From contig PLZV01000057.1 of the NCBI GenBank assembly GCA_003152315.1, positions 264,065 to 328,064 of the forward strand: a stretch of DNA of 64,000 nucleotides, read 5' to 3'. This stretch comes from Verrucomicrobiota bacterium (GTDB lineage: Bacteria; Verrucomicrobiota; Verrucomicrobiia; Palsa-1439). Every line of letters starts with the position of its first letter. The first letter of the stretch is position 1. A program made the position numbers and the translations under genes. This document shows, piece after piece, positions 13,125 to 53,599 of the stretch. The notes under the pieces were generated by a model. The model saw only the letters and a list, made by a program, of their open reading frames with translations, was not told the DNA's origin and searched no databases.

Positions 13125-13442
13125 GCATTTCCGCCTGCGGAACACCGTCCTGAAACGTGAGTTGGTGACCTGTATGCCCCCCCAAAGGGTACAAATCGAC
13201 CACAATGCGAGTGGGCACGTATGTACTTCGGCGAAAATGTCTTCAGTTAATTTTGTGATATGGGCTCGTTCGCTGCGGTCCGCAGTGAAACGAGGTATGT
13301 TAAAGGGTTCCCTTTGGGGGTCGCAGACGGGTGCTGATGACCGAAATCTCCTATATCCAGTAAAACATTTGCATTTTTTGCTTGTCAGAACGTTCTGATA
13401 CATATATAAGAGTGGGCGGAGAAATTCGGTGTCCCACGGCGT
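13125..13442. repeat. Promoter cassette, copy 1 (repeat of 34409-34725)
   Basis: About 318 bases that match 34409-34725 closely along their whole length, with scattered substitutions. Shared landmarks are GCATTTCCgsCTGC at the left, CCCCCCAAAGGGTACAAATC, TGCGAGTGGGCACGTATGT, GACCGAAATCTCC, and the operator/promoter block near the right end. Similarity stops shortly after GGTGTCsCACGGCGT. The cassette is non-coding and lies upstream of a PEP-CTERM gene at both places. It looks like a duplicated promoter region. Confidence 0.85.
13385..13398. promoter_or_regulatory. Operator TCAGAACGTTCTGA (site 1) in promoter of PEP-CTERM gene
   Basis: A perfect 14-bp palindrome. It overlaps a plausible promoter: TTGTCA at 13382-13387, a 17-base spacer, and TATAAG at 13405-13410. 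The same spacing and boxes recur at 34668. The central CG is typical of LacI-family operators. The gene start is 215 bases downstream. Binding by the LacI protein at 51346 is inferred from the two copies beside that gene. Confidence 0.85.
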
Positions 13443-13612
13443 GCGGACGAGAGAGTTTCAAGTAAGGGAATGGAAGAAGGTATGCGAGTGAGGCGGGAAC
13501 CACCAGCAGATGGGTTGCAACAATACTGTAAAGCCCCATCAGAAATTTCGGCACAATCACGTGATAATGAATTTGTCAGAGCTGGCAATTCAACAACAGA
13601 GGAGAGGCGACG

Positions 13613-14584
13613 ATGAAAGACAATGCAACAATCGGTGTGATGGACTGGCCGAGTCCGGCGCGTAATCGTTTCATGGCACAGGGTTTTCTCTCGCCCTCCA
13701 ACAGGGCGCGGTTTCTGGCGATGGGATTACTCCTGGCTGGCGGGGTCTTTTGGGGAGACGCCTACGCGGTCACTGAGACGTGGCTTGGTAACGTGTCGGA
13801 CATCAGCAGTAACTGGTCGAGTGCCGCCAACTGGAGTGGGTCTCCCGTCCGGGTGCCAACCAGTGCTGATCTGGCGGATCTGAACAATACGGCAGCTTCG
13901 TACACCGCAAATTTCGCGACGAACATTTCCACGTACACGATCAGTTCGTTCGTCGTGAGTAACAACAGCGGAAACACCACCACCCTGAACATCAACCAGG
14001 GCACCCTGGCCACAGGCAGCGCGAGCACGGCAAATATTCTGGGCAGCGGTGGGACCATCAATATTAATAACACTGGCGTGCTGAAGACCGCGTTTGCGCT
14101 CAGCGTTAGCGCGGGCGACTTGACCGTGAACAGCGGCGGTGTATTCACGAACACCTCGACAACTGCGACCGTCACGGTGACAAACGGAGGGGTGGTGTCC
14201 ATGCAGGGCGGCCAGTTGGTGACATCCAAGCTTACCTTGCTTCCCACCGCGGTCTTGGACTTCGGTTTGACTACGCCGGGGGCCAACAATCCCATCAGAA
14301 TTGCGGCCACAGGCGGTCTGATTCTAGACGGGACGGTCAACGTCAATGATCTGGGCGGGTTTACAACGGGGACGTACTTGCTGATGACCTATACGGGAAC
14401 ATTGACAGATAACGGGTTGAACGTCGGCACGCTTCCTGCCGGGTTCAACGCCACGGTCGATAACAGCACGGCGGGCCAGGTGAACTTGGATGTAACTGCG
14501 ATTCCCGAGCCATCCACGATCCTGTTAAGCGGGTGCGGCTTGGCTGCGCTCTGGCTGAGGCGGGGCCGACGGCGTACTTCGTAG
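13613..14584 (+). CDS. PEP-CTERM sorting domain protein with beta-strand-rich repeats
   Basis: A secreted or surface protein of 323 aa. The ATG is set by GAGGAGAGG 6-14 bases upstream. A long N-terminal leader ends in a hydrophobic segment and an Ala-rich cleavage region (WGDAYAVTETW, near residue 50). The middle is rich in Thr/Asn/Gly strands, like autotransporter-type beta-helix repeats, with no catalytic motif seen. The C-terminus is a canonical PEP-CTERM tail: IPEPSTILLSG, a membrane segment, then RRGRRR. Such tails are recognised by exosortase and usually go with extracellular polysaccharide. It is a close paralogue of 52493-53419. Operator site 1 lies in its promoter. Function unknown; a surface or matrix structural role is likely. 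Confidence 0.88.
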   Translation: MKDNATIGVMDWPSPARNRFMAQGFLSPSNRARFLAMGLLLAGGVFWGDAYAVTETWLGNVSDISSNWSSAANWSGSPVRVPTSADLADLNNTAASYTANFATNISTYTISSFVVSNNSGNTTTLNINQGTLATGSASTANILGSGGTININNTGVLKTAFALSVSAGDLTVNSGGVFTNTSTTATVTVTNGGVVSMQGGQLVTSKLTLLPTAVLDFGLTTPGANNPIRIAATGGLILDGTVNVNDLGGFTTGTYLLMTYTGTLTDNGLNVGTLPAGFNATVDNSTAGQVNLDVTAIPEPSTILLSGCGLAALWLRRGRRRTS

Positions 14585-14620
14585 GAGATAATTCGGCTGG
14601 TTACGGGCGCTGCGAGGTAT

Positions 14621-15088
14621 TTGCTATGTGATGTGAGATGGGGATGGGTAAGGCACTGCACAGATTGGCCAGCTCGGCGATGGGGGGATCATGCAAAGGG
14701 CGGTCAGAAAGTGCAGACGGCGTTTGTGGACTTGGGTTATCGGGGACACGAGGTGGAGGACGGCGCGGCGCAGATTCACGTGGTGCCGCGCAAACGCCGG
14801 CATCTGGCGAAGAGTTTGCGGCGCTGGATGAATCGGCAAGCGGCGATTGAGCCGGTCATTGGGCACTTGAAGTCGGACCATCGGATGGAGCGCAATCGGC
14901 TGAAGGGTCGTGTTGGCGATCAACTCAACGCGGTGTTGAGCGCCTGCGGGTTCAACCTGAGAAAGCTCCTGCGAGCTTTCTTTTGTCTCGAGTGGTTGGA
15001 GTCTCTACTGGCGACTCTGCGCTGCCCAGCCCAACTTCTATCCGCTTGCAACACCCCTGAAACCACTTTTTCAGGACCGACTTCATAA
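14621..15088 (+). pseudogene. IS5-family transposase, 3' fragment
   Basis: Only the C-terminal third of a DDE transposase is present. Recognisable pieces are AFVDLGYRGHEVE, then RQAAIEPVIGHLKSDHRMERNRLKGRVGDQ with the catalytic Glu in AIEPVIGHLK, then NAVLSACGFNLRKLL. The N-terminal DDE domain is missing. The sequence ahead of about 14690 is unrelated to the family, so the reading frame start is artificial. It sits just behind the PEP-CTERM gene and marks an old insertion or rearrangement point. Confidence 0.8.
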
Positions 15089-15138: not shown

Positions 15139-18102
15139 CTACTGGAGCCGTTTGACGTCGAGTCTCATGAACTGTTGCGAGGTACCGTTGATGGGTACGA
15201 TGTCACTGGCGGTGACCGTCTCGGTGCCATTCCCATTGTCGTTCACCTGCCAGGCAACGCAATTCGAACACCACGTGTTTAGGTCATTCGACACCTCGGC
15301 GATGTAGAGCAAGTCCAATGGCGCGGGATGCGTCCGGGTGAACGACAACGTGAGGTAGCCGCCCTGGTTGAATGGAACGGGGAGGCCATTAAGATTGGCG
15401 ACCTTGGGATCGAGGTTCAGTGCGTACTCCATGAGGTTGGGGATGCCGTCATTATCCGGGTCCGCAGTCGCACTGTTTATGGCGGAATTGGTGAGTTCCG
15501 CGGCCGTGAAATGGTTGATCAGCCACAAGTCAAATGGATAGTCCTGGATGGTGACGCTCGTATTGTTCGTTGTGCCAATCGAATAGGTGAGGTCGCCCAA
15601 GAGGGTGAAGGTGAGCGTTCGATTGCCCTTGGCGATATTGTTCGGGATGGGGGTGACGGTGACAGTGGCTGAACCGACGCCCGCGGGAATCACAACGGAA
15701 GATGGGAGCGCTGCGTAATCCTGGCCATTGCTGGCAGTTCCGCCGATCGTGAACCTAGCGGTGACGTCCGTATTGGTGTCGCCGATGCGGCTAATGATAA
15801 TGCTCGCGCTGTTTGTGCCCAACTCGGTGGCGATGGCGTTGGTGGTGGAGAGGCCAAGCAGCGGTAGCGCCGTGACCCAAATACGATCCAGGTGAACGGC
15901 CAAATTATCGACGACATTGAGGCGAAAGTCTGCGCCGCCGTTTTGCCGGCCGCCGAAGTAAGCGTCCGCGATGTTGTAGCGGACCGTGCGCCATTCGGAC
16001 GAACCCTGGGTTTGGATTTGTTTGGGATGAACGGTATAAACACCATTGGTGCCATTGTACTGCAAGTCGAGGGTGACATTGTTGCTGCGGTCGTAATACT
16101 CGACATCAATCGTCACATCCAGGCCGCCTGCGGCTTGGAAGGCATAAGACGGATCGACATGGAAATAGAAGTAATGATCATTGGTGGGATTGGCGTTGTA
16201 GAGGCAATCGCGCCCTGCCAGCGTCTCCGCCAGCGTGTTGCCATCGGCGGCGTTCGGCATCAGGTAGAGCGAGTGGCTTTGGTTGGTGGTGCCTAGGTCA
16301 ATCCATGCTTGGGAGCCAATGTTGGCCCGGTTGGTGGTGCTGGCTTCCGTCGGCATCGAGTTGGTATTTACATAGGGACGCTGTTTCAGCAGCATGTCCC
16401 GCGCCTCACTCGTCAGCGTCATCCACCAATCCACCGAGTAGTTCTCGTTTGTGATGAATCGTCCGTACGTTGGGTTCGTCGACGTCGTCGGCGGATCGTC
16501 GGTCATCGGCATGATGGCGGTGCCTTCGTCGTACTCGTCGAACATGCCAATGAACAACCGAGTGGCGCTGCTTCCTTCGGCCAAGTAAAGCTGGTTCCAA
16601 TAGAAAGCTCCGCCTTGACGGGGTGTGAGTTGGGTGGTTCCGGTTTGCTTCATGAGGTTGGCCCAGGAGAATCCCGGCCAAACATGTGGAAAGTAATCAA
16701 TTCCCCAAGTGTTGCACTGCGCCACATCATTCGAATACCCCTTGTCACCTTGTGAAGCGGTCGACTGCCAGACTTGGATGCCATCATATTTCTGAAAGTG
16801 CGGGAGCCACGTTGTCATTGAGCGCCAAGTGTTCGGCACGCCGCCGATCACATAGTTACCGCCATACACGCTGTTGGTGTGGAACCAGTCGACGATGAAA
16901 TTTCCGTTCGATTGGGCAATGTTCCTGTCAGAAAACGGAAGTCCCCAGATGAAGATCACGGGCTTTCCGTTTTCATGCGCGTAACGTGAATCGTCGCGGA
17001 CTCCCACGACGTCGCAGAGCCACTTCCAGTCGTTGGTAATGACGTCAACGACATTGCTATTCACCAAACTACTGATGTCGTATTCAATGGCCCAGATGCG
17101 GCCTTCCTGGTGGGCCGCCTCCCGCACTTGGGCGAGCACCCATTCGTCGTACCCGTAAGCCCCACTCGCTGTTGGCGACGCAAATCGCTGGAGAAATGCG
17201 CCGTCCATGTTGTACTGCCGCATCCATTGGAAATGACGACGGACAGTTTCCTTGGTGGTAGAGGAAAAGAGATAAGCCTGCCTGCCGCTCCTGGTGAGTA
17301 CATTCTGGGCCTGAAAGAGTTCATTGCTGGGAAAGGCTGTGACGCCGGGCCAAAAACCGCTGAGGTTGGTGCGCTCGGAACTGAGCGCCGGCCACATGTC
17401 AACGGTGAAGTCCTTGGCCTGCATGTCGTTGGTCCGACACCAGTGCACCCATCCTTGGTCGGACAGATCATTGGGGGCCCGGAACCAACCTTGATAACCC
17501 ACCATCACTTTGTGGTTCAGGGTGTTGTTGGTGACGTAGTCCTGGGTTGGTCCGCTGTAAGGCGCGAGCCATGGTTTCGTTAAAACATACAGGAAGTTCG
17601 TGTCCGCGAACGGGGTGTTCTGTATCGTCACGCTCTTCACCGACAGGGGCGGAGTGGTCGAGAACACTACCAGTCGAAAATCAGTGCCGTTATTCTCATT
17701 GTTGGCGAATAGCGGCTTAAGAAGTTGCTGGTACGAAGTGACAAAGCTTTGACTATTCACGCGGGAGGATCGGGTGTGCGCTTCCGCCGGGTGATATTTG
17801 TCCGCCAGTTGAGAGCTGTACGTGGAATCATACTGCACCCGGAGTGTGCCGTAGCCCGTGTCGTAATAGACAACCTGCACATACACCGGCATTCCCGTTG
17901 TGAAAGTGAATGTCGACGGCACGTCGAAATACAGGTAGAAGCTATTGTTGGTGCTCTGCCAAACCACCTGACCGTTGATGGTCGTGCTGGTGAACTGGCC
18001 ATCGCCAGCAACAAACGTGGGGGTGAGGCTGAGGGTATCAATTCCAAGTAGTGAAGGAGCGAAGGCAAGAAAAGACGCCAGAACGATAATCCATTTGCGC
18101 AT
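15139..18102 (-). CDS. Secreted GH99/GH71-like glycoside hydrolase with Calx-beta domain
   Basis: A 987-aa exported enzyme. I place the start at the ATG at 18102 because a classic signal peptide follows (MRKWIIVLASFLAFAPSLLG) and because the frame upstream runs through an operator at 18144. Residues about 25-200 are a beta-sandwich. The catalytic domain starts near 220 with HKVMVGYQGWFRAPND and contains FDEYDEGTAIMP near 520, whose Glu residues are the likely catalytic pair in 71/99-like hydrolases. A second sandwich follows, then a Calx-beta domain (about 755-855) and a DPDNDGIPN calcium repeat (about 880). Family GH99 contains endo-alpha-mannosidases and mannanases, which fits the mannose genes at 40-49 kb. 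The exact substrate is inferred. Confidence 0.82.
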   Translation of the reverse strand: MRKWIIVLASFLAFAPSLLGIDTLSLTPTFVAGDGQFTSTTINGQVVWQSTNNSFYLYFDVPSTFTFTTGMPVYVQVVYYDTGYGTLRVQYDSTYSSQLADKYHPAEAHTRSSRVNSQSFVTSYQQLLKPLFANNENNGTDFRLVVFSTTPPLSVKSVTIQNTPFADTNFLYVLTKPWLAPYSGPTQDYVTNNTLNHKVMVGYQGWFRAPNDLSDQGWVHWCRTNDMQAKDFTVDMWPALSSERTNLSGFWPGVTAFPSNELFQAQNVLTRSGRQAYLFSSTTKETVRRHFQWMRQYNMDGAFLQRFASPTASGAYGYDEWVLAQVREAAHQEGRIWAIEYDISSLVNSNVVDVITNDWKWLCDVVGVRDDSRYAHENGKPVIFIWGLPFSDRNIAQSNGNFIVDWFHTNSVYGGNYVIGGVPNTWRSMTTWLPHFQKYDGIQVWQSTASQGDKGYSNDVAQCNTWGIDYFPHVWPGFSWANLMKQTGTTQLTPRQGGAFYWNQLYLAEGSSATRLFIGMFDEYDEGTAIMPMTDDPPTTSTNPTYGRFITNENYSVDWWMTLTSEARDMLLKQRPYVNTNSMPTEASTTNRANIGSQAWIDLGTTNQSHSLYLMPNAADGNTLAETLAGRDCLYNANPTNDHYFYFHVDPSYAFQAAGGLDVTIDVEYYDRSNNVTLDLQYNGTNGVYTVHPKQIQTQGSSEWRTVRYNIADAYFGGRQNGGADFRLNVVDNLAVHLDRIWVTALPLLGLSTTNAIATELGTNSASIIISRIGDTNTDVTARFTIGGTASNGQDYAALPSSVVIPAGVGSATVTVTPIPNNIAKGNRTLTFTLLGDLTYSIGTTNNTSVTIQDYPFDLWLINHFTAAELTNSAINSATADPDNDGIPNLMEYALNLDPKVANLNGLPVPFNQGGYLTLSFTRTHPAPLDLLYIAEVSNDLNTWCSNCVAWQVNDNGNGTETVTASDIVPINGTSQQFMRLDVKRLQ

Positions 18103-18143: not shown

Positions 18144-18157
18144 TCAGAACGTTCTGA
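18144..18157. promoter_or_regulatory. Operator TCAGAACGTTCTGA (site 2) upstream of GH99-like gene
   Basis: A perfect 14-bp palindrome 42 bases upstream of the chosen start of the minus-strand GH99-like gene. Read on the minus strand, TTGATT precedes it by two bases and could be a -35 box; the -10 is weak. The Na/Pi cotransporter starts 172 bases away on the other side, so divergent control of both genes is possible. Confidence 0.82.
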
Positions 18158-18328: not shown

Positions 18329-19963
18329 TTGCTGGGTTACTTCAATTTCTTTGCCGGGATTGCGTTGATGCTTTTTGGCATCCGCAGTCTGCGCAAGGGG
18401 TCGGACCGTGTCTTTGGCGCAAAGTTTCGCAAACTTGTGCACACGGCGACCCAAGGGCGACTCCGGGCCATGGGGGCCGGCCTTCTGATTTCGATCCTGG
18501 CTCCGAGCAGCACGGCGTTGGCGTTGCTGTCCGTCGAGGCGGTCAATGCGGGCTACGCGTCGCCCGAGCAGATCCTCGCCTTGATGTTGAGCGCGAATGT
18601 GGGCTTCACGATTACGGTGCAACTCCTGGCGTTCAAGTTTTATGTGTTCAATTCCCTGTTTATCGCGATCGGGATCCCGCTCTATCTTTTTGGCAAGCGA
18701 CAAAACATCCTCGGGGCTGGACAGACCTTGTTCGGGATCGGCTTTTTGCTGTTGGCCATTCAAATCCTCTCCGCCGCCGTGGCACCGGTGCGGAGCGATC
18801 CGGACATGCTCGAATTGATTCGCGTGTTGGAGAATCATCCATTGTGGCTGGCGCTGATGGCCATTGCCCTGCAGGTCACCGTCCAAAGTTCCACCACGAC
18901 CATCGGCATCGGCATCGCGCTGTGTTCGCAAGGCGTGATTCATTTGGAGGGGGCCCTGGCGATCGTCATCGGCGCGAATATCGGCATCGGCGTTACCTCC
19001 GTTGTGGCGGGATTCGCCAAGATAGACACCCGGCGTATGGCGGTGGGGATCCTGCTGATAAAACTGGTCGGCGCCGCGATCATCGTGCCTTTGATGCCTT
19101 GGGTGGTTCGGCTGCTGGAACCCTTGAGCCTGCCGGGAGCAACGCACGACACCCAGTTGATCGCCAATGTCCATACGGCTTTCAACCTTGGGCTGGCGAT
19201 CATCTTTTTCCCCTTGGTGCCGTGGCTGTCCCGCCTGCTGGAGAAGCTGATTCCTTCCCGGGCGGTCGCGGAGGAGAGAACCGGTGCGCGTTATCTCGAT
19301 CCCACGGCGTTGGAAAGTCCGCCGCTGGCGTTGGGACAGGCGACCCGCGAAATCCTGCACATGGCGGACATTGTGCGGAGGATGTTGCGCAACGCCTACC
19401 GCTGTTTTAAGGAAGGCAACGAGCGGCTTTGCGAAGAGGTGCGGAACGAAGACGACGAGGTCGACCTGCTCAATAACGAAATCAAGGCCTACATCACACG
19501 CATGTCCGAGCAGGCGCTCAATACCGAGGATTCGCGGCGCGAAATCGCCTTACTGGCGTTTGCCAATGAACTCGAGAGCGTCGGTGATATCATTGATAAG
19601 AACCTCGTCGAATTGGCGGAAAAGAAGATCACGTTACAGGTCGATTTCTCGAAGGAAGGGTGGGTGGAATTGGCGGGATACTTTCACCAGGTGCTGGAGA
19701 ATTTCGAAATTGCCGTTTCAGCGTTCGCCAGCCAGGACAAGACGCTGGCGGCGCAGTTATTGCGTCACAAGCATCGCATCAACGAACTGGAGCGCGACCT
19801 GCGCAACCGCCATTTCCGTCGTCTGCATGCGGGGCTAAAGGAATCGTTCGAAACGAGCGCGGTCCATCTCGATGTCCTGACCAACCTGAAGCGGATCAAC
19901 TCCCACCTGACAGCCGTGGCCTACCCGATCCTCGAAAACGGGAACAACGACAGGGTGTTTTGA
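18329..19963 (+). CDS. Na+/phosphate cotransporter with PhoU-like C-terminal domain, copy 1
   Basis: A 544-aa membrane protein of the NptA/PNaS family, which imports inorganic phosphate with sodium. The N-terminal half holds the two inverted Na/Pi repeats with the QSST-type signatures ILAPSSTALALLSVEA (about residues 55-70) and VQSSTTTIGIGIALC (about 190-205). The C-terminal half (about 340-540) is a helical PhoU-like domain. It starts with TTG, preceded by GGAGATAACAGG; the paralogue at 37673 also starts with TTG at the same residue. It is followed after 81 bases by a secreted phosphatase, suggesting a phosphate-scavenging pair. Confidence 0.9.
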   Translation: MLGYFNFFAGIALMLFGIRSLRKGSDRVFGAKFRKLVHTATQGRLRAMGAGLLISILAPSSTALALLSVEAVNAGYASPEQILALMLSANVGFTITVQLLAFKFYVFNSLFIAIGIPLYLFGKRQNILGAGQTLFGIGFLLLAIQILSAAVAPVRSDPDMLELIRVLENHPLWLALMAIALQVTVQSSTTTIGIGIALCSQGVIHLEGALAIVIGANIGIGVTSVVAGFAKIDTRRMAVGILLIKLVGAAIIVPLMPWVVRLLEPLSLPGATHDTQLIANVHTAFNLGLAIIFFPLVPWLSRLLEKLIPSRAVAEERTGARYLDPTALESPPLALGQATREILHMADIVRRMLRNAYRCFKEGNERLCEEVRNEDDEVDLLNNEIKAYITRMSEQALNTEDSRREIALLAFANELESVGDIIDKNLVELAEKKITLQVDFSKEGWVELAGYFHQVLENFEIAVSAFASQDKTLAAQLLRHKHRINELERDLRNRHFRRLHAGLKESFETSAVHLDVLTNLKRINSHLTAVAYPILENGNNDRVF

Positions 19964-20044
19964 CGAATCGTGCGCAACATGCCAACCAACTGGCAGTCGG
20001 TAGGGCGTTTGGTGGGTCCACCACACAGGAAGGCTGAGTTATTT

Positions 20045-21187
20045 ATGAGAGCACTACCAACGCTGTTCATCATCTTCGCCGCACCGGTAGTTGCTCGGGG
20101 ACAAATCGAGCGCATTTGGCTGACGCATAGAACCAGCGATCCCAGCCGGCTCGTCGTGAACTGGGAGACGGCGGTACCCGGTGATTCGGTGGTGCATTTT
20201 GGGGTTACGGCGCAGCGCTTGGGCATCGTTTCGCAGCACAACAGCATCACACTGCACCACGTCGAAATCGCGACGCCGCTGCGCAATGTCGTTTATCACT
20301 ACTCCGTCCAGACTGGAACGAATGAATCGCCTGACTATACATTCCGCGCCTATCCGACCGACGAGTTGCGCGTGGCCGTCGTCGGCGACTGGACAGACGG
20401 CAAGTCCTCGCTCGATGCGCTGAAGCGCGACCAGCCCCATCTGCTGCTGACCGCCGGAGACAACATATCGTGCCTGCACGCTCTCTGCGGCGCGGGCGTA
20501 AAGGACTGCACGAAGAGCTACAGTGCGTTGATTGACGCGCAGCCAGAGCTGTTTCGCTCGACGCCATTCCTCCCTGCGCTGGGCAACCACGACAAAGAGA
20601 TCCGCCCGCGCGGGAAGAAGGCACCCCCCGAAATGGTGTATGATCTTGATGCGACAGCCTACCGGAGATTCTTCCCCCTCCCCGGCGACCAGTGGAAATG
20701 GGCCTTCGACATACCGGAGTTCGACGTGCAGTTCATCGCGCTCGACCTCGAACACATCACCGACTTCGGGACGACGTGGCAGGCCTGCCATGATTTCCAT
20801 CGCGGGTCACCACAGTTCGAGTGGTATCGGGAGTTGATGGCGACGACGCGAGCCGGGTTCGTCATCACGCTGCACAACGAGTACAACGACCGGATGAGGT
20901 CACAAGAGGGCGGCGCGTGGCACGACATGTTCCGGCGCGGCACAATCGTTGTCAGCGGATTTGGCTATTACGCCGAGCGGGCCGTTGTGGATGGATTCAC
21001 CTACTACAACACGTGCGTCGCCCCGGCCGGCACACCCTATCGTGATCCGAAATCGGAGGTCTTTGAAAGCACAGCTAGCTATATGCTGTTCACCTTCCAC
21101 AAGAGCGCGGGGGAGATGACTGCCGAACTCAAGCGGCTCGACGGCTCGGTGATTGACCGACAGGTGTTCCACACCCGACGCCGATAA
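20045..21187 (+). CDS. Secreted metallophosphatase (purple acid phosphatase-like)
   Basis: A 380-aa exported phosphoesterase. The ATG at 20045 is chosen because a signal peptide follows directly (MRALPTLFIIFAAPVVARG). An N-terminal fibronectin-like domain (about 20-105) is typical of purple acid phosphatases. The calcineurin-like domain has the metal motifs VVGDWTD near 116, LLTAGDN near 133, ALGNHDKE near 183, and TLHNEYND near 287. The first motif has GDW instead of the usual GDxG, and the late GHxH motif is not obvious, so activity is likely but not certain. It probably releases phosphate outside the cytoplasm for the cotransporter upstream. Confidence 0.82.
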   Translation: MRALPTLFIIFAAPVVARGQIERIWLTHRTSDPSRLVVNWETAVPGDSVVHFGVTAQRLGIVSQHNSITLHHVEIATPLRNVVYHYSVQTGTNESPDYTFRAYPTDELRVAVVGDWTDGKSSLDALKRDQPHLLLTAGDNISCLHALCGAGVKDCTKSYSALIDAQPELFRSTPFLPALGNHDKEIRPRGKKAPPEMVYDLDATAYRRFFPLPGDQWKWAFDIPEFDVQFIALDLEHITDFGTTWQACHDFHRGSPQFEWYRELMATTRAGFVITLHNEYNDRMRSQEGGAWHDMFRRGTIVVSGFGYYAERAVVDGFTYYNTCVAPAGTPYRDPKSEVFESTASYMLFTFHKSAGEMTAELKRLDGSVIDRQVFHTRRR

Positions 21188-23920: not shown

Positions 23921-23968
23921 CGTTATCGGCGTCGTGGAAGTGGGATGAGATTCCGTGCTTGCAAATTA

Positions 23969-23982
23969 TCAGAACGTTCTGA
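23969..23982. promoter_or_regulatory. Operator TCAGAACGTTCTGA (site 3) upstream of first beta-helix gene
   Basis: A perfect palindrome (16 bp with flanking A/T), 242 bases upstream of the ATG at 24225. TTATCA at 23966-23971 aligns with the TTGTCA box of sites 1, 6 and 8. A degenerate copy matching 11 of 14 bases lies 54 bases upstream at 23915-23928 and could be an auxiliary site. Confidence 0.8.
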
Positions 23983-24129
23983 TAGAGGTATTCGTGAGCT
24001 GTAGATGGGACAGTATATGAGCTCAAAGAGGTGGGCCCAAACAACATAACTGTAACTCGTCTAAAAGTCTTCGGGGTTAAGGAGGTGGCGCGCTCTTCCA
24101 TCTGGCTGGCGGCCTTTGACAACCGGCCA

Positions 24130-45210: not shown

Positions 45211-45969
45211 TCAGGCCCTCAATCTCGAACCGGTTTTTCCGAGAGCAGGCTTCCGTCGATCCGCAAGGAGGTGGTCGGCAATTTGGTCAAAGTCTCGCAC
45301 GTGGATCAGCGTGTCGGTATTGCGCGCCGACAGGTCTTCGAATCGATTGACGAGGAATGAACCCGCCAGCCCGACAGAATGCGGTACCTCGTAATCGTCC
45401 CGAAATCCATCTCCCACGACAGCGACTTCCTTCGGTGCCAGGGCAATGTGCGCCAGCGCTTTTTTCCAGTACGTGGCCTCCCATTTCATCGCATGCAAAC
45501 CGGAAACACCGAGGAGCTGGCTGAAGAAAGGCGCTCCCTGGCTGTTGGCTAGGCCGGCCACCCGCAGCTTGTGCAGGATGCCATCGTTGGGGTTGTTGCT
45601 GGTGACATACAGCAGAATCCCGTGATCGCGCAAGCGCGTCAGTGCGGAGCGAATCTCCGGGCCAGTCGCTTCCAGATATTCCGATTCCACCTCATAGGCG
45701 TAATCCCAAAACTGCTTGGGATCGAGGCCGAGTTCCACGATGTAATCCGACCAATGCCACCACGGCACCTGCGTCTTGATTTTTTCGATGCGGCGCTCGG
45801 TGTCCTTGGTGGTCAAGCCGCCGAGTTTCACGCCCGCGCTTTGAAGCACTTCGAAAAGACTGCCGGTCCAATTACCGTTGTTCTTGGCCTCGTGGTGATC
45901 GAGTTTCAGGCGCGTGATGGTGTCATCGATGTCGATCAATAGCGCGCGGATTTTTCCAAACTTGTTCAT
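45211..45969 (-). CDS. HAD-family hydrolase (sugar-phosphate phosphatase-like)
   Basis: 252 aa from the ATG at 45969, which overlaps the mannosidase stop by 4 bp and follows the ribosome site AAAGAGG. HAD motifs are visible: motif I ALLIDIDDTIT (nucleophile Asp near residue 13), motif II LYVTSNN (about 125), the motif III Lys near KWEATYWKKAL (about 165) and motif IV AVVGDGFRDDYEVP (about 185). It is a soluble phosphatase; HAD enzymes in sugar loci often dephosphorylate sugar phosphates and prevent phosphate stress. The specific substrate is unknown. Confidence 0.87.
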   Translation of the reverse strand: MNKFGKIRALLIDIDDTITRLKLDHHEAKNNGNWTGSLFEVLQSAGVKLGGLTTKDTERRIEKIKTQVPWWHWSDYIVELGLDPKQFWDYAYEVESEYLEATGPEIRSALTRLRDHGILLYVTSNNPNDGILHKLRVAGLANSQGAPFFSQLLGVSGLHAMKWEATYWKKALAHIALAPKEVAVVGDGFRDDYEVPHSVGLAGSFLVNRFEDLSARNTDTLIHVRDFDQIADHLLADRRKPALGKTGSRLRA

Positions 45970-48584
45970 AAATTCCTCTTTAGGTGAATCGCCGCTACCG
46001 AGCGTGGCGGCATTTCCACCGTCGCCCAGCCTTCCCGCACGGGCAAAGACTGTTGATCTGCTTCCAGTGTATTGGTTCGAAATGCCCCGATAACGTTCTT
46101 GCCCGACAGCCGCACACGGGCTTGCGCTGTGGTAGTTGAGGTGTTCGCCAGGCGAACGATGGTGCCGCCGTTTTCCGCGTCCTTGACGGCGAGCGGAATC
46201 ACGCCGGCACCGTCCACCTCGACAAAGCGTTTTTGCAGCGATGCCGGTGCAGTCACGACGGGATGAACCTCCACGCTTGAACAGGCTTCCCAACCAGCCA
46301 GAGCGGCGCGCGTCGCGTCGAACGGGCCCTGCGTGGTCAATTCATAACGAAATCGTTGCCAGCCCGGTTGGCTTGCGCGGAAATTGGTGTTCCAATAATT
46401 GTTCATCGGCCACGCGAGAAGCAACGGATTGTTCTTTCGCGACACTTCACTCTGCTTCTTTCCGAAATTGAAGTCGCCAATCTGTACCATTGGCGCATCC
46501 GGGCAGGCGAGAGTAAAGCCGTGGGTTCCATCGTGTAGGGAAACCCACTGACCGACGGTGACCCAATCGCGACAGGAACCGGGCAATTGTTCAGCATCGA
46601 GTTCAACGGGCAATCCCGCTGTATCGAAATGAGCCCGCCATTTTGAGAGGTGGCAGGGGAAGGAAAAGTAGATCGATTCCGGTGTGGCGATATCCAACTT
46701 GCGGAAGGAAACGCTCAATTCGATGGCGGTGCGATGCGCGAAAAGTTTGATGCGCTGTTGCAATTGTTCGACACCCGGTGCGGTCCAATCGAGAACCAGG
46801 CAGGCGCCATCTGCGGTTTTTTCGACACGATGTCCAATCAGGGAAGTGGGTCCCTGACGGAGAGACGGCCAATTGGGTTTCCAGTTTTCGATGTCCTGCC
46901 TCAGGCCGTCGTAAAGAATTTGGAAGGATGCGTCCCTTCCGAAATAAGGTGGTAGTGAAGGATAACGTTTGGGATCAACGGTTTCCTGAACGAATCCAAA
47001 GAACGACCACGGGTTGGCCTGATCGACCACATCCCACTTGAGGGCTTTGTCGATCAAACTGGTAATTCGACCGGTTACTGGATCAAAGGTAAGGCGATGG
47101 AAGGGTGATTCGAGCGTGTTCGCGGAAACCGTGATCCCTGCAGATTCCGTGGCCGCCGGTAATTCAGAAATCGGGAGAATGCGATACCCATTCGCGGGAA
47201 GTTCGATCGGACCCAGCAACCGACTGTTGGTGTCATCCCAACCCTCGCGCTCGACATCGATGCTGTGGACCTTGCTGGAAAAGTGAAGCCACGAATTGTC
47301 GAACCAGACGTTGGGCGCTCGCAAGAAAACCTTTCGCGCAATCGGCGCGGTATTCAGGAACAAGAGGCCCTGACAACCTTCGCCCGAGACCGGGTTGCCC
47401 GCCAGCGCATCCAGTTGGTCTCGCAGGAGCAGTGAAGTAAGGCTGCGGGCCTGGTACGCATAGTTCGCTTTGTGATACCACTGCGCGACGACGCCATCCC
47501 ATTCGGGGTGGGGGATGCTCGCAAAATGGCCCCACGTGTGTTCGTCATGCAGATTCAGATTCCAGTAGGCTTCGTCAACGAGCTGCCGCGTCTCTGCGCT
47601 GGTCGCGGGCCGGTTGGTTCGTAGCAGCTCGGCGGCGGCGAGTCGCGAACGTGTCTCACGATTGACTCGTGTTTCCACGGCGGCGCTGGCGCAACCGAAA
47701 TTCCACCAGTCCGTCCAGTCTCCACGATGCATGGGTAGGAGCGCTTCCGGTTGCTGCTTTAATTTTGCCAGCAGCCCTTCGGGCGTGGTCAGGCGGATGA
47801 CGGGCGTGCGGCCTTCGTCATTCCAGCGTTTGATCATGGCGAGAGCTTGCGGGTAGGGCGGGTTATTGTCCCAGAACAACCAATGCGTCAAACTCAGGTA
47901 AAGAAAGTCGTAGGGATAATTGCGCGCACAGAGTGTCTGGAAATATTCCTCCAATCCTTGCGCCATGGCGTCCGTGGAACTCTCGACGATGCGGCAGATG
48001 CGCTGGAAGATGCCGTAGTGTTCGCCATTGAATACGAGAAGCGGCCGGCCATCGCTGCCCTGCCAGCGGAACGCGGACGGTCGGGTCAGCGGAAAGTTAC
48101 CGAAGTGAATATTGATCCCCATGAGAAGCATCTGGATATCGGCGTCCAGCAAGAGTTGTGTGATGGGCCAGGGCAAACCATTCACGTCATGGTTGATCGC
48201 GACAGAAATGGGAATGCCGAACTGGCGGCGGAGTTCGCGCACGGGTTCAAGACTACGGGCGAGTTGCTCTGCGTCATATAGCGGTGTGATGTTGCAAAAC
48301 ATCGCGCCGATGCTGATGCGTTGCTCATGCACCAGCCGCGCAAATCGTTCGATCTGTTTGTCGCTGGCCTTGTGCAACCAGTGCATGACGGGCCCGGTGG
48401 TTTCGCACGTCCAGCGGACTTGTGAAGGTTCCGGCCATTCCGCTGTTTGCTCGCAGAGGTCGATGGCCTGATCGATGAATCGGCGTTGCAGTTCCCAGAG
48501 AATCGGCTGGGGATGGGTATAGCCGATATCCGTATGACTATGGTGGATGATCAGTACTTCCTTGATGTCCCCTATAGATCTCAT
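45966..48584 (-). CDS. Glycoside hydrolase family 38 alpha-mannosidase-like
   Basis: An 872-aa enzyme without signal peptide, hence cytoplasmic. The N-terminal catalytic domain shows the zinc motif HHSHTDIGYTH (residues 14-24) and a likely nucleophile Asp in AINHDVNGLPW (about 125). The remaining two thirds are the beta-sandwich domains usual for GH38, ending RSVAAIHLKRNL. GH38 enzymes remove alpha-linked mannose. The start overlaps the fucosidase stop by 4 bp and its own stop overlaps the HAD start by 4 bp. Together with the isomerase and kinase this is the strongest hint that the operon handles mannose-containing glycans. Some GH38 relatives act on other sugars. Confidence 0.88.
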   Translation of the reverse strand: MRSIGDIKEVLIIHHSHTDIGYTHPQPILWELQRRFIDQAIDLCEQTAEWPEPSQVRWTCETTGPVMHWLHKASDKQIERFARLVHEQRISIGAMFCNITPLYDAEQLARSLEPVRELRRQFGIPISVAINHDVNGLPWPITQLLLDADIQMLLMGINIHFGNFPLTRPSAFRWQGSDGRPLLVFNGEHYGIFQRICRIVESSTDAMAQGLEEYFQTLCARNYPYDFLYLSLTHWLFWDNNPPYPQALAMIKRWNDEGRTPVIRLTTPEGLLAKLKQQPEALLPMHRGDWTDWWNFGCASAAVETRVNRETRSRLAAAELLRTNRPATSAETRQLVDEAYWNLNLHDEHTWGHFASIPHPEWDGVVAQWYHKANYAYQARSLTSLLLRDQLDALAGNPVSGEGCQGLLFLNTAPIARKVFLRAPNVWFDNSWLHFSSKVHSIDVEREGWDDTNSRLLGPIELPANGYRILPISELPAATESAGITVSANTLESPFHRLTFDPVTGRITSLIDKALKWDVVDQANPWSFFGFVQETVDPKRYPSLPPYFGRDASFQILYDGLRQDIENWKPNWPSLRQGPTSLIGHRVEKTADGACLVLDWTAPGVEQLQQRIKLFAHRTAIELSVSFRKLDIATPESIYFSFPCHLSKWRAHFDTAGLPVELDAEQLPGSCRDWVTVGQWVSLHDGTHGFTLACPDAPMVQIGDFNFGKKQSEVSRKNNPLLLAWPMNNYWNTNFRASQPGWQRFRYELTTQGPFDATRAALAGWEACSSVEVHPVVTAPASLQKRFVEVDGAGVIPLAVKDAENGGTIVRLANTSTTTAQARVRLSGKNVIGAFRTNTLEADQQSLPVREGWATVEMPPRSVAAIHLKRNL

Positions 48585-49825
48585 TTTGGCAAATCTGGAA
48601 AAATATCTGCCGCTCCGATCACGCGGCTAATGTCTTGATCGGGCGGGGAGTCCAATTCTAACTTCACGACACTAAGGAGTTCGTCCGGTGATTGCTCGGG
48701 CAGACCGGTGATAATCGTTTGCGTCGGGCGCTGATCGATGTACAAGCGTTGCCCGGTGCTCAAGAGGGTGGCAGCGAGCACGCGATTGGTCAGGCCGCCG
48801 ACCGTCAGGGTTGGGCCGAAATAGTCTTCCAGGTGCAGGTACATCGTGTTGCCCTTGACCGTGGTCGGCCCCCATAGATTCCACAACAGGCTATGGCGTT
48901 CCGATCCATAAATGCTTTCGCCATGGACCTGCAGCCACTGGCCGACGCGACGCAGGATGGCTTCGCTTTCAATCGGGATCCTTCCTTGCGCATCAGGGCC
49001 GACATTGAGCAGGAGGTTGCCCGCGCCACTCGCCGCAGAGGCCAGCGTGAGAACGACGTTTCGCGGAGACTTGTAATCGTGATCTGTCGGACAATAGCCC
49101 CAATGTCGATTCAAGGTCATGCAGCTTTCCCACATCCGTCCCCGGGGCGCGGCGTTGAGATGCTGTTCGGGAGTGGTGTAGTCTTCCGTCGTCATCGCAC
49201 GGTTATTAATGATGATCTGCGGCTGGAGTTGGCGGACCATTGCATTGAGTTCGACGGCGCGCCATTCGGCGGCGCTGTAACATTGCGGCAAGTCGTAAAA
49301 TAGAAGATCGATCTTCCCATACTGGGCCATCAACTCACGCATCAACGCATGCGTATAGTCTATGAAACGAACGCGCGCCTGGTCATCGCCTTTCCAGCCC
49401 GCAGCCCAGTCGGGGTTATACCAATCGCCGAGTGAGTAATAGAAGCCAACCTTCAAGCCGGCATTACGGATAGCGGTAACATATTCGGCCAGCAGGTCAC
49501 GCCGGGCCGCGGAGTTAAGGGAATTGAACTTGCAGACTTTCGAGTCCCACAGGCAAAAGCCTTCGTGATGCTTGGTGGTCAACACCACATATTTCATACC
49601 AGCGTCAGCAGCCAGTTGGGCCCAAGCTTTGGGATCATAGTCGCGCGGATTGAACGTTTCGGCCAGCTTGCTGTATTCGTCGAGCGGAATGCGCTCGCGG
49701 TTGAGCGCCCATTCTCCGTGTTCCAGCAGAGCATACAATCCCCAATGGATGAACATCCCGAATCGGGCTTGCTCAAACCACGCCATCCGCTCCGAGGAAC
49801 AGCGAATTGAAGGTTTCGTTTGCAT
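48581..49825 (-). CDS. Glycoside hydrolase family 29 alpha-L-fucosidase
   Basis: 414 aa from the ATG at 49825. An in-frame TTG at 49864 would overlap the previous gene by 28 bp; neither start has a strong ribosome site. Family landmarks are WFEQARFGMFIHWGLYALLEHGEW near the N-terminus (interrupted here only for description), YVVLTTKHHEGFCLWDS, and YGKIDLLFYDLPQ with the nucleophile Asp. Then come GHW-type residues NRHWGYCPTDHDYKS and GNLLLNVGPDAQG. The C-terminal sandwich is short. No signal peptide, so it trims fucose from imported fragments in the cytoplasm. Overlap with the mannosidase start is 4 bp. Confidence 0.9.
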   Translation of the reverse strand: MQTKPSIRCSSERMAWFEQARFGMFIHWGLYALLEHGEWALNRERIPLDEYSKLAETFNPRDYDPKAWAQLAADAGMKYVVLTTKHHEGFCLWDSKVCKFNSLNSAARRDLLAEYVTAIRNAGLKVGFYYSLGDWYNPDWAAGWKGDDQARVRFIDYTHALMRELMAQYGKIDLLFYDLPQCYSAAEWRAVELNAMVRQLQPQIIINNRAMTTEDYTTPEQHLNAAPRGRMWESCMTLNRHWGYCPTDHDYKSPRNVVLTLASAASGAGNLLLNVGPDAQGRIPIESEAILRRVGQWLQVHGESIYGSERHSLLWNLWGPTTVKGNTMYLHLEDYFGPTLTVGGLTNRVLAATLLSTGQRLYIDQRPTQTIITGLPEQSPDELLSVVKLELDSPPDQDISRVIGAADIFPDLPK

Positions 49826-49836
49826 CGGGTTCGCGG

Positions 49837-51075
49837 TTATTTCACAAGCTTTGGTTCGCCCCAATAGGCGTGGTTATTCCAGAAGGTTTTCGCATCATTA
49901 ACGTCCTCGACCTTCAACGTGAGTTCGTTGGCGCCATCTAGCTTGATGGAGATGGGAGTTGCCGGATCTTTGACAGTCCGCCGACCGCTCCGAAAAACTT
50001 CACGCCCATCGATCGATACAATGAAATCGGCGGCGCCTTCACGGGTCAGTTCCGCGTTCATGCCGATCATGGCGTCGAACCGGGAAAACACGCCGACCGG
50101 CAAGTTATACCGCATCCAACAATTACGCGGTCCATTCATGCCGCTGTGGGGAAGGACCCCCAGCCCGGGCACCGCCCGCTTTTCACCGTTTGGAAACAGT
50201 AACTTACCAGCCATGACCGGCGCGCCTGCCGGTGGTGTGGAACGATTGCCGTCGAGGATCGCCCCACCATACACGAGGTCATGTATTTCGGAATCAGCTT
50301 TCCAGAGACGCAAATCCACCGTGGCAAACGCCTGCCGTTCCGACGGGGAAATATCTTCGGCGGCGAGCCGCAACGCCGTGTACATGATATCCAGCGTCAA
50401 CTGGGCCGCTTTTGTCACCGGCGGTTCAGCCCGCAGCTCTGCTTCCGCTTTTTTTCCGTCAAAAATGGCCTGCAATAGCGGGATAATGTAACGACGGCAC
50501 TCACGCATCGCTTCGGTGTTGATTGCGGCTTGTCGCCAGGAGACCTCTTCCACATTCAGGCCTAGTAAGTGCGGCTGACGCAGGGTCCCGCACGCGCCCG
50601 TCACGGCTTCGAGGTCAGTGTGATAATGGAAGCCGGACATCGTCGGCGGGGCCGGTATCAATTCCGCCAATAATTGCGAATCCAAAATATGCGCGGATTG
50701 GGTCAGATCGCCAAACCAATGAGAGAAGCAGCCGATGAATTTTATGAACGCCTCGCGGTCACCCTGACGGGATGCCTCGATTGCCTGCGACAACCAGTGA
50801 CGCGAGATCGGACGGCTCTTCGCCTGTTCGGCGATTGGATGCGGCCAAGAGTGGAGGTTGGTGGCATCCATGCCCTTTGGGAAAATGCAAAAACGCTTCC
50901 AAGCCGAGTCTATCTTGCTCTTTTCTTCATCCGAGACCGTGGGGTTATCAAACAAGTCTGGGTAGTTGCCGACGGAAGGGAGTAAGCCCTTCATTAGCTC
51001 CAGTGTCGCGCGAAATTCTTGTGGCAGGGCTTCAAACGCCCCCACCATGATGTTGGCGTGTGCTTGCTTGTTCAT
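49837..51075 (-). CDS. Phospholipase C/S1-P1-like domain fused to NPCBM carbohydrate-binding module
   Basis: A 412-aa protein and the first gene of the catabolic operon. The N-terminal two thirds are helical with His/Asp-rich motifs that recall zinc-dependent phospholipase C/P1 nucleases: LHSWPHPIAE near residue 74, FIGCFSHWFGDLTQSAHILD near 112 and GFHYHTDLEA near 147. The C-terminal third (about 270-412) looks like NPCBM: FDAMIGMNAELT, DFIVSIDGREVFRSG, ANELTLKVEDVNDAKT, and HAYWGEPKLV. No signal peptide is evident, which is odd for both parts. The ATG lies about 110 bases from operator site 6. Its role in glycan use is unknown. Confidence 0.65.
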   Translation of the reverse strand: MNKQAHANIMVGAFEALPQEFRATLELMKGLLPSVGNYPDLFDNPTVSDEEKSKIDSAWKRFCIFPKGMDATNLHSWPHPIAEQAKSRPISRHWLSQAIEASRQGDREAFIKFIGCFSHWFGDLTQSAHILDSQLLAELIPAPPTMSGFHYHTDLEAVTGACGTLRQPHLLGLNVEEVSWRQAAINTEAMRECRRYIIPLLQAIFDGKKAEAELRAEPPVTKAAQLTLDIMYTALRLAAEDISPSERQAFATVDLRLWKADSEIHDLVYGGAILDGNRSTPPAGAPVMAGKLLFPNGEKRAVPGLGVLPHSGMNGPRNCWMRYNLPVGVFSRFDAMIGMNAELTREGAADFIVSIDGREVFRSGRRTVKDPATPISIKLDGANELTLKVEDVNDAKTFWNNHAYWGEPKLVK

Positions 51076-51185
51076 TCAGTCTTTTTCAATTGGATGCAAC
51101 AGAATTACTTCTACCAATATCATCAACGAGTGAAGTGAAGGAACCACTTTGATGATCCCTCAGTATAAAACTCTGCACAATCTTA

Positions 51186-51199
51186 TCAGAACGTTCTGA
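51186..51199. promoter_or_regulatory. Operator TCAGAACGTTCTGA (site 6) in promoter of the catabolic operon
   Basis: A perfect palindrome filling the spacer of a minus-strand promoter: -35 TTGTTT (51203-51208), a 17-base spacer, and -10 TAAGAT (51180-51185). The predicted start point lies about 100 bases before the first gene (ATG at 51075). An operator lying within the spacer is the classic position for repression. Confidence 0.87.
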
Positions 51200-51300
51200 T
51201 ATAAACAAGCGTGAAGATGACACCTTTTAGTTACCCTTGCAAGAGAGGGAGTTTCGACAAAAGTAGTAAGTGATCTCTCAGAGAATTAGTGCTTGCCTAA

Positions 51301-51314
51301 TCAGAACGTTCTGA
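51301..51314. promoter_or_regulatory. Operator TCAGAACGTTCTGA (site 7) upstream of lacI-type regulator
   Basis: A perfect palindrome 31 bases before the regulator ATG, preceded by a possible -35 TTGCCT (51293-51298). It lies 115 bp from site 6, close to eleven helical turns, so a tetrameric or paired repressor could bridge both sites. Autoregulation of the regulator is the simple reading. Confidence 0.87.
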
Positions 51315-51345: not shown

Positions 51346-52383
51346 ATGGCTACTGGACTTAAAGAGGTCGCTCTCATTGCTGGAGTGTCCGTGCAAACGG
51401 CTTCCGACATCCTTAATTGCGGGCGGCATGACCGGTACAATCCCAACACTCAGGCCAGAGTGAAGGAGGTCGCGCAAGAACAGCGCTACCGCCCACAACG
51501 ACTGGGAAGAGTGCTACGCGCTCAATCCACGGGTATGATCGGCTTCGTTACCGCAAATTTTTCTCCCGAGGATGGCCAGTTGGAGTTCTACAACGTCTAT
51601 CCGTTCCTCGTGGGAATGAGTCATCACCTCAGCGCGCGTGACTATCATGTGGGATTGCTGGAAATAGCGGAATTCCAACAGAAGAATGACAAGGATTTAC
51701 CACGATGCCTGCAAGAGCGGTTCTACGACAGTTTGGTGATCCACTGGGGACTTGCTGAAAAATTTGCGGGGCTGATGCCACTATTGGGAATACCTGCCAT
51801 TTGGTGGGATGCAGGACTATTCCTGCCCAACAACTGCTTGGATCGAGACGAAGCGGAGGTTGGGCGAACCATCACTAATCACCTGATCGAGCTGGGGCAC
51901 CGGCGGATCGGGTTCATGGTCGGCCAAAGAAGTTGGGAGCAATACAAACAAGGAAATCCGCCTCATTACAGCTATTCCCAGAGATATGAGAGCTATGGCG
52001 CGGTGCTGCATGAGCGTGGCTTGGAAGAGATACCAATCAAGGGTTACGGGGTGCCGCAGCTTACGGCGCAGATGAAAAAGCACCAACTGACCGCCATCGT
52101 CACCATGTCGACTGCCAGCGTGCCCTACGTGCGGTTGGCGGCCCATAAATTGGGATGGAGTGTACCGCAGGATCTATCTGTGGCCGTCTGTGATTTTGAA
52201 GAGAGAGTTCGACAAACGGAAATGTGCGTGGGCGGTGTATCGTATGACCGCTATGCGGTGGGCCGTCAAGCGGCCGAGATGCTACTCGAGTTGCTAACAC
52301 AGCGAGATCGGACAGTCGCCAGTGCCAAGTTCGTTGGGGAATTCTGCGTCGGCGACACGATCAGTCGCGCACCGGCTCGATGA
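51346..52383 (+). CDS. LacI-family transcriptional regulator, probable controller of the locus
   Basis: A 345-aa DNA-binding regulator. The N-terminal helix-turn-helix reads LKEVALIAGVSVQTASDILN (residues 5-24), followed by the hinge region YRPQRLGRVLRA (about 48-59). The sugar-binding periplasmic-type domain starts at STGMIGFVTANFS and includes the NHLIELGHRRIGFMVG strand. AGGCAGGA precedes the ATG. The hinge of this family inserts at a central CG step, which the palindrome TCAGAACGTTCTGA has. Two copies of that palindrome sit between this gene and the divergent glycan operon, and six more lie before secreted-protein genes. It is therefore the best candidate to bind them; the inducer is unknown. 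Confidence 0.9.
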   Translation: MATGLKEVALIAGVSVQTASDILNCGRHDRYNPNTQARVKEVAQEQRYRPQRLGRVLRAQSTGMIGFVTANFSPEDGQLEFYNVYPFLVGMSHHLSARDYHVGLLEIAEFQQKNDKDLPRCLQERFYDSLVIHWGLAEKFAGLMPLLGIPAIWWDAGLFLPNNCLDRDEAEVGRTITNHLIELGHRRIGFMVGQRSWEQYKQGNPPHYSYSQRYESYGAVLHERGLEEIPIKGYGVPQLTAQMKKHQLTAIVTMSTASVPYVRLAAHKLGWSVPQDLSVAVCDFEERVRQTEMCVGGVSYDRYAVGRQAAEMLLELLTQRDRTVASAKFVGEFCVGDTISRAPAR

Positions 52384-52492
52384 ATGGACGGGATGTCACC
52401 AAAATGTGATTCTCGACACGGAGATCCGAAACATTCGTGCGGTAATCAATTTGTGAGAGCGGACAGTCCAAATAAGAGGAAAGAGGCGGACA

Positions 52493-53419
52493 ATGAAAAA
52501 TAATATGACAATCGGTGGTTTTATCTCGTCTTCTACGGGGGCGCGATTATTGGCAGTGGCTTTACTTTCGGTCGGCACGCTCTTTGGGGGAGAGGCCTAT
52601 GCGGTCACTGAGACGTGGCTGGGCAACGTGTCGGACACCAGCAGCAATTGGTCAAGTGTTGGCAACTGGTCCGGGTCTCCCGTCCGGGTGCCGACCAGTG
52701 CTGATTTGGCGGCCCTGAATAATACCGCAGCTTCGTACACCGCAAACTTCGCGACGGGTATTACCACGTACACGATCAGTTCGTTCATCGTGAGCAATAA
52801 CGGCGGAAACACCACCACCTTGAATCTCAACCAGGGCACGCTGGCCACAGGTAGCGCGAGCACAATGAATATTCTGGGCAATGGTGGAACCATAAACATT
52901 AATAACACCGCCGTGTTGAAAACCGCATTTGGACTCAACGTTACCGCAGGCGACTTGACCTTGAACACCGGCGGCATATTGACAAATATCTCAACTACTT
53001 CGCCTTTCGCGGTGACAAACGGTGGCGTAGTGTCCATGCAGGGCGGCCAATTGGTGACACCCAAGCTTAGCTTGTTCCCCACTGCAGTTTTGGACTTCGG
53101 TTTAACGACGCCGGGCGCCAACAATCCCGTGAGAATTATCGGCACGGGCGGCCTGATTCTTGATGGGACGGTAAATGTTAACGATCTGGGCGGGTTCACG
53201 ACGGGTACCTATTTGCTGATGACCTATACGGGAACATTCACGGATAACGGGTTGAATGTTGGCGTCCTGCCAGCGGGATTCAGCGCCACGGTCGATAATA
53301 GCACCGCGGGCCAGGTGAATTTGGATATAACGGCGATTCCTGAGCCATCCACGGTCCTGTTAAGCGTATGTGGCTTGATTGGACTATGGCTTCTGCGAGG
53401 TCGAAGACATGCCGTGTAG
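52493..53419 (+). CDS. PEP-CTERM protein, paralogue of 13613-14584
   Basis: A 308-aa surface protein that matches 13613-14584 along nearly its whole length (VTETWLGNVSDTSSNWSS, the Thr/Asn-rich strands, VSMQGGQLVT, GLILDGTVNVNDLGGFTTG). It differs mainly in the shorter N-terminal leader. The tail is PEP-CTERM (IPEPSTVLLSVCG, membrane segment, RGRRH). The ATG follows AGAGGCGG. Unlike the paralogue it has no operator of its own; it starts 109 bases behind the regulator gene and could be read from the same promoter. A conserved surface or matrix role is likely; no enzymatic motif was seen. Confidence 0.87.
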   Translation: MKNNMTIGGFISSSTGARLLAVALLSVGTLFGGEAYAVTETWLGNVSDTSSNWSSVGNWSGSPVRVPTSADLAALNNTAASYTANFATGITTYTISSFIVSNNGGNTTTLNLNQGTLATGSASTMNILGNGGTININNTAVLKTAFGLNVTAGDLTLNTGGILTNISTTSPFAVTNGGVVSMQGGQLVTPKLSLFPTAVLDFGLTTPGANNPVRIIGTGGLILDGTVNVNDLGGFTTGTYLLMTYTGTFTDNGLNVGVLPAGFSATVDNSTAGQVNLDITAIPEPSTVLLSVCGLIGLWLLRGRRHAV

Positions 53420-53585
53420 AACAGATTTTGACTCGTTATTGTCACCGGGGAGTATTCGCTTTGTGATGGGAGAAGGATGCCTGCCTGAAACGTCAACCCG
53501 GATCATTGAGCCCATCGGCATACGCGCCGGCAGCTAATAAAACGGGTATGGATAAATATCTTGAAAAAAGCGCATTTTTTACTTG

Positions 53586-53599
53586 TCAGAACGTTCTGA
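53586..53599. promoter_or_regulatory. Operator TCAGAACGTTCTGA (site 8) upstream of double lectin-like gene
   Basis: A perfect palindrome overlapping TTGTCA (53583-53588), with TTTATT at 53605-53610 as a possible -10. GCATTTTTTrCTTG precedes it exactly as at sites 1 and 5, so about 20 bases of promoter context are conserved. The gene ATG lies 57 bases downstream. Confidence 0.85.

Follow-up and report, generated by a model that had tools for sequence, protein, structure and literature searches.

A palindrome confined to one locus is the predicted operator of a local LacI regulon joining PEP-CTERM surface proteins to a catabolic operon in a Verrucomicrobiota bacterium

A stretch of 64,000 nucleotides from a Verrucomicrobiota bacterium (assembly GCA_003152315.1, contig PLZV01000057.1, positions 264,065 to 328,064; hereafter the window) contains eight letter-perfect copies of the 14-base palindrome TCAGAACGTTCTGA spread over 40.2 kb (Table 1). 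These copies are predicted, with a probability of roughly 0.86, to be the operators of the LacI-family protein P0001, encoded at 51346-52383 in their midst. From its sequence, the locus would hence constitute a local LacI regulon, and it displays the testable features that define one. The unusual aspects are its PEP-CTERM surface-protein targets, its letter-perfect operators and the recurrence of its design.

Across the whole genome (4,887,466 bases in 62 contigs), TCAGAACGTTCTGA occurs eight times, always at this locus, against an expectation from base composition of about 0.011. An earlier note on this DNA had listed the same eight copies, had considered them unexpected by chance and non-coding, and had named abundance of the palindrome elsewhere in the genome as grounds for rejection; on all these points the genome-wide count and a revised gene model bear it out. 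Non-coding sequence makes up 15% of the region, and the chance probability of all eight copies falling within it is about 2.5e-7. The window holds no copy with one mismatch, and its next-best match, with two, lies at 59604 inside the gene 59446-60510. Similarly, a scan of the whole genome with the 16-mer ATCAGAACGTTCTGAT, allowing up to three mismatches, found no match closer than two mismatches outside the window; the contig ends 8.3 kb beyond the window, and further sites past its end could be missed. The palindrome is of even symmetry with CG as its central dinucleotide, and is perfect over 14-18 bp, with the symmetry extending to 16 bp at two sites (27314, 51301) and to 18 bp at two others (23969, 51186). 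Read in the direction of the gene, it is followed by TA on its 3' side at seven sites. In a sample of 384 genomes of the class, TCAGAACGTTCTGA is present in three, the other two having single, chance-like copies. A related sequence, TCAGAACGTTATCG, shares the first ten bases of the operator with three mismatches in the remainder; it lies at 23915-23928, 54 bp before copy 3, and is possibly a decayed or half operator. Two other kinds of element were set aside: an RNA hairpin, because a perfect palindrome without a loop forms a poor one (a search of Rfam also returned no RNA element), and a restriction site, because the eight copies are restricted to 40 kb.

P0001 unites a LacI helix-turn-helix (PF00356, 30.7 bits against a cut-off of 27) with a periplasmic-binding-like sensor domain (PF13377, 55.2 bits against 26.5), the combination that marks the family. 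Among the 11 lacI-type genes of the genome, that of P0001 is the only one preceded by zero-mismatch CG-centred 16-mers, of which it has two; one other gene has a one-mismatch 16-mer of different sequence, farther upstream. The two sites stand 31 and 146 bp before the lacI start, as expected of autoregulatory sites. Their spacing of 115 bp corresponds to about 11 helical turns, and looping between them is possible, though speculative for a protein without an evident tetramerization tail. In a survey of LacI-family regulators, the sites of 1173 of 1303 transcription factors had a central CG and were nearly always even palindromes, 72% of the regulators were autoregulated and nearly 90% were local (Ravcheev et al. 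2014, PMC4052901); the sites at P0001 fit this picture in symmetry, central CG, autoregulation and local targets alike.

Further, the recognition code of Camas et al. (PMC2978694) holds that residues AA-15 and AA-16 read half-site positions 5 and 4, and that an arginine at AA-20 pairs with G at position 6. P0001 has V/Q at AA-15/AA-16 facing A/G at positions 5/4, and its Gln16 with G at position 4 is the pairing of E. coli LacI. The canonical Arg20/G6 pair is absent on both sides, with Asp20 in the protein and C6 in the site, which places P0001 outside the TVSR subgroup and still inside the LacI family. The hinge residue that inserts at the central CG is hydrophobic and mostly Leu (PMC2978694); P0001 has L57, aligned by eye with L56 of LacI and L54 of PurR. 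These residues agree with the published code, which falls short of proof. A palindrome alone does not identify its protein, and the sites could in principle be operators of an unlinked regulator from another family; their CG-centred even symmetry, their autoregulatory placement at lacI and the footprint of a homologue described below make this improbable.

A closer competitor for the sites is P0002, a second LacI-type protein that is 64% identical to P0001 and differs from it in the recognition helix by V16I only. Its gene lies 2 kb past the window in the same cluster, on the minus strand (L025:1788-2822, corresponding to C5:329852-330886). The sites might belong to P0002, or be common to both paralogues, which would possibly sense different sugars. 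This is unlikely, if worth keeping in mind, as no copy of the palindrome stands upstream of the P0002 gene and two stand at that of P0001. The region of P0002 moreover looks disrupted, with a transposase-like gene upstream (L025:3390-4448).

The assignment of the sites to P0001 also draws on more distant relatives. Apart from the genome's own two paralogues and one remote family member, no LacI relative was recovered from 11 genomes of the family and order at an E value of 1e-15 or from a 388-genome sample of the phylum at 1e-30, and the GTDB-220 contigs contained no closer one. The 384-genome class sample yielded two distant homologues, in the genomes G460 (39% identity) and G541 (35%). The 6.6 Mb of G460 contain four copies (0.27 expected) of the palindrome ATATKAACGTTA, which likewise has AACGTT at its core, all of them within 20 kb (C50:480702-500352; L071, L072). 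One copy each precedes the lacI homologue, a heparinase-like gene and a pectate-lyase-like gene, and the remaining copy lies between another pectate-lyase-like gene and a GH39 gene. The recognition helix reads SINTVSDILN in G460 and SVQTASDILN in P0001, with AA-16 changed from Gln to Asn, and in the half-site G460 departs from the present locus at positions 5 and 6, with G or T at position 4; such differences would be as expected from a shift in specificity. On the 10.5-kb contig of G541, no repeated palindrome was found. The attribution of the sites to LacI, which the earlier note had made, thus gains support from their uniqueness among the 11 lacI genes, from a distant homologue with linked sites and from the general form of LacI sites.

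As a control, 32-40 kb around nine other lacI genes of the same genome were surveyed for other palindromes, and eight of these neighbourhoods contained no notable multi-copy CG-centred palindrome. At the ninth, on contig C20, TTTACGTAAA occurs five times in 11.4 kb, out of six copies in the genome (1.7 expected). These lie near lacI and before genes for a GH65 phosphorylase with a HAD enzyme, an alpha-1,3-glucanase, and pilin-like and PEP-CTERM proteins; the copy at L051:129 roughly coincides with the mechanically chosen start of its lacI reading frame. This locus is predicted to be a second regulon of the same design with a different palindrome, so that the placing of sugar enzymes and surface proteins under one LacI-type site would not be a single accident.

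The position of the sites relative to promoters and genes is informative in part. Five of the eight lie 31-116 bp before a start codon and the others at 149, 214 and 242 bp, so that most fall within the 30-140 bp expected of a LacI regulon. The copies at 13385 and 34668 each take up the spacer of a sigma-70-like promoter, TTGTCA-17-TATAAG (10 of 12 matches). The earlier note's proposal that sites fill or overlap the -35/spacer region is convincing at these two and moderate at 53586 and, on the minus strand, at 51186, so that it stands for about half of the sites and is weak elsewhere. Its further statement that each copy precedes a secreted-protein gene, the glycan operon or lacI is upheld at every site other than 18144, where the target is ambiguous on account of the divergent flanking genes for a Calx-beta-type protein and a sodium/phosphate (Na/Pi) cotransporter.

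The letter-perfect identity of the sites invites the explanation that they were recently spread by segmental duplication or a mobile element, and that identity reflects youth instead of function. Indeed, 13125-13442 and 34409-34725, containing copies 1 and 5, are 88% identical over 319 bp, copy 8 (53586) shares about 30 bp with both, and remnants of IS110, IS66 and DDE transposases are present. However, in a matrix of all 28 pairs the other flanks are at or near the random level, so that, except at the one duplicated promoter pair, recent copying does not explain the identity. Even in that pair the repeats have diverged by 12% and the site has remained unchanged. The exclusive placement of the sites at promoters and the recurrence of the arrangement with other sequences at C20 and in G460 also speak against such an origin, which can be regarded as largely refuted and very improbable. 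An identical 14-mer amid unrelated flanks points instead to selection for a strong, uniform operator. Genes of the cluster have themselves been duplicated (13613 and its paralogue 52493, 81% DNA identity; the Na/Pi genes, 76%; the beta-helix genes, 66-74%), which shows that duplication enlarged the cluster, while promoters retained or acquired sites.

Because the sites precede duplicated, diversified surface-protein genes, they might alternatively be used by a site-specific recombinase, or in promoter inversion, to switch surface proteins (phase variation). Against this, a cytoplasmic catabolic operon and the lacI gene are also preceded by sites, and these are single symmetric palindromes with no paired inverted repeats around the promoters. 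No invertase was noticed beside them, and the sites do not extend to the integrase at 5928-7289, which neighbours a restriction cluster. Of all the alternatives, this is the hardest to credit.

Several observations weigh against the prediction that the sites are operators of P0001. Two of them are over 200 bp away from the start codon, several show weak overlap with a promoter, and an eight-fold perfect identity is more uniform than typical operator sets. P0002, given its near-identical recognition helix, could be the binder or a second one. The pattern ATATKAACGTTA was taken from the region in which it was later counted, so that the count in G460 is not blind; its absence elsewhere in that genome is informative. 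AlphaFold modelling of the two paralogues gave a pLDDT (predicted local distance difference test) of 46.7, too poor for use, and the regulon as a whole is predicted from sequence.

Table 1. Coordinates of the predicted operators, the regulator and the genes of the locus, with the palindrome copies of the C20 locus
Feature	Coordinates	Strand	Remarks
Operator copy 1	13385-13398		overlaps TTGTCA-17-TATAAG; 214 bp before PEP-CTERM gene 13613
Operator copy 2	18144-18157		between divergent genes (about 18102, - strand; 18329, + strand)
Operator copy 3	23969-23982		18-bp perfect palindrome 23967-23984; 242 bp before 24225
Operator copy 4	27314-27327		149 bp before likely start 27477
Operator copy 5	34668-34681		lies in a duplicate of the copy 1 promoter (319 bp, 88% identical)
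Operator copy 6	51186-51199		18-bp perfect palindrome 51184-51201; 110 bp before catabolic operon; TATACT-type -10, - strand
Operator copy 7	51301-51314		31 bp before lacI; 115 bp from copy 6
Operator copy 8	53586-53599		57 bp before likely start 53657; heads series 53639-63200
P0001, LacI-family regulator, 345 amino acids	51346-52383	+	PF00356 E 2.7e-7; PF13377 E 1.2e-14
NPCBM-domain protein	49837-51075	-	first gene of catabolic operon
Alpha-L-fucosidase, GH29-type	48581-49864	-	PF01120 E 2.8e-90
Alpha-mannosidase-like protein, GH38	45966-48584	-
HAD-family phosphatase/mutase	45211-46293	-	true start probably near 45966
Sodium:solute symporter	43229-45190	-
BadF/BcrA-type (amino)sugar-kinase-like ATPase	42250-43236	-
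Protein of 588 amino acids	40487-42253	-	last gene of operon; weak mannose-6-phosphate-isomerase-like C-terminus, below cut-off
PEP-CTERM surface protein	13613-14584	+	over Pfam cut-off
Secreted Calx-beta-like protein	15139-18102	-	Pfam match below cut-off
Secreted beta-helix/CBM96/PKD protein	24225-27152	+
Secreted beta-helix/He_PIG/PKD/SprB-repeat protein	27477-33008	+
PEP-CTERM surface protein	34798-35841	+	gene also cited as 34783; over TIGR02595 cut-off
PEP-CTERM-type protein	52493-53419	+	PEP-CTERM match below cut-off; downstream of lacI, no site of its own
Secreted PKD protein	53657-56113	+	first of tightly spaced + strand series to 63200
TTTACGTAAA copies	L050:19015; L051:129, 3379, 6673, 10427		around C20 LacI gene

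Divergent from lacI, the catabolic operon runs from 51075 down to 40487. The secreted proteins at 24225 and 27477 are of the large beta-helix/PKD/Ig type; the C-termini of these two neighbours are encoded in part by a 399-bp repeat (26758-27156 and 32614-33012, 93% identical), suggestive of recent gene conversion or domain exchange. The five-gene surface-protein series reaching 63200 includes two more beta-helix proteins together with type IV pilin-like and CBM96 proteins, and the pilin-like proteins have a weak match to the Verru_Chthon cassette; taken with the PEP-CTERM proteins, such gene content would by itself point to Verrucomicrobiota. Sorting of PEP-CTERM proteins requires an exosortase, and exosortases (PF09721) are encoded on contigs C29 and C3 of the genome. 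The Na/Pi cotransporter with a PhoU domain is present twice, at 18329-21187 and 37673-40455; one copy is followed by a phosphoesterase gene and the other by a gene for an unknown secreted protein, and each is near a regulated surface gene. Such phosphate transport next to a glycan regulon is perhaps a sign that the substrate is phosphorylated. Outside the regulon, 7-7289 carries type I restriction-modification genes (HsdS and HsdR domains) with a phage-type integrase.

For the working of the predicted regulon, we infer the following about DNA binding, the ligand, joint induction and a mode of control by repression and not activation. In the absence of ligand, a P0001 dimer would occupy the CG-centred site and repress transcription, because, as we propose, promoter elements (the -35/spacer or the start region) overlap the site. 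The ligand, suggested by the alpha-mannosidase, fucosidase and kinase of the operon, would be a product of alpha-mannosyl/fucosyl glycan breakdown, either as such or phosphorylated, and would bind the periplasmic-binding-protein-like domain. The ligand-bound repressor would leave the operator, and the NPCBM/GH29/GH38/HAD/symporter/kinase pathway would be expressed together with the PEP-CTERM and beta-helix surface proteins. The pair of sites separating lacI from the operon, 115 bp from each other, would let P0001 regulate both its own gene and the divergent operon. The most likely mode is repression that a sugar ligand lifts, as the sites at 13385 and 34668 sit in the spacers of good sigma-70-like promoters; some promoters may instead be activated.

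Known systems resemble this arrangement in part. Local LacI sugar regulons such as those of RbsR and ScrR (Ravcheev et al. 2014, PMC4052901) share with it the LacI helix-turn-helix and periplasmic-binding domain, the CG-centred even palindrome, autoregulation and an adjoining catabolic operon with transporter. Unlike them, the present locus counts PEP-CTERM and beta-helix surface proteins, spread over 40 kb, among its predicted targets; it has the same 14-bp core at all eight sites, a helix with TASD instead of TVSR, and C where G is usual at position 6. Verrucomicrobiota was not among the seven phyla that the survey covered. In Proteobacteria, PrsK/PrsR control of PEP-CTERM genes via sigma-54 likewise involves a common cis element before many of these genes, which have long upstream regions (Haft et al. 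2006, PMC1569441). However, that is a two-component system with a -24/-12 promoter, as opposed to the LacI-type site, sigma-70-like promoters and tie to a specific catabolic operon seen here. By analogy of role only, the polysaccharide utilization loci of Bacteroidetes similarly cluster surface proteins, glycoside hydrolases, a transporter and a regulator for one glycan; here the regulator is of the LacI type, and none of the scanned cluster proteins is of the SusC/SusD type by which such loci are recognized.

An exact, genome-unique predicted operator thus connects a single sugar-type repressor and a single catabolic operon with PEP-CTERM genes. Given this link and a second, independent regulon predicted to follow the same plan, the part played by PEP-CTERM surface proteins becomes open to test: they are expected to be induced by, and perhaps to bind, a defined glycan. 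It also offers a cheap route to further regulons, by seeking palindromes that occur only around a lacI gene. Tentatively, and with somewhat less than even confidence, the PEP-CTERM and pilin-like sets of this lineage might be divided among several LacI-type regulators that act in parallel and recognize a separate exact palindrome each, such that the coat is remodelled according to the glycan being eaten. The regulators and DNA motifs of PEP-CTERM genes outside the Proteobacterial PrsK/PrsR class were described as still to be found (Haft et al. 2006, PMC1569441); if the above proposal is true, parallel LacI regulators would supply this missing regulation outside Proteobacteria.

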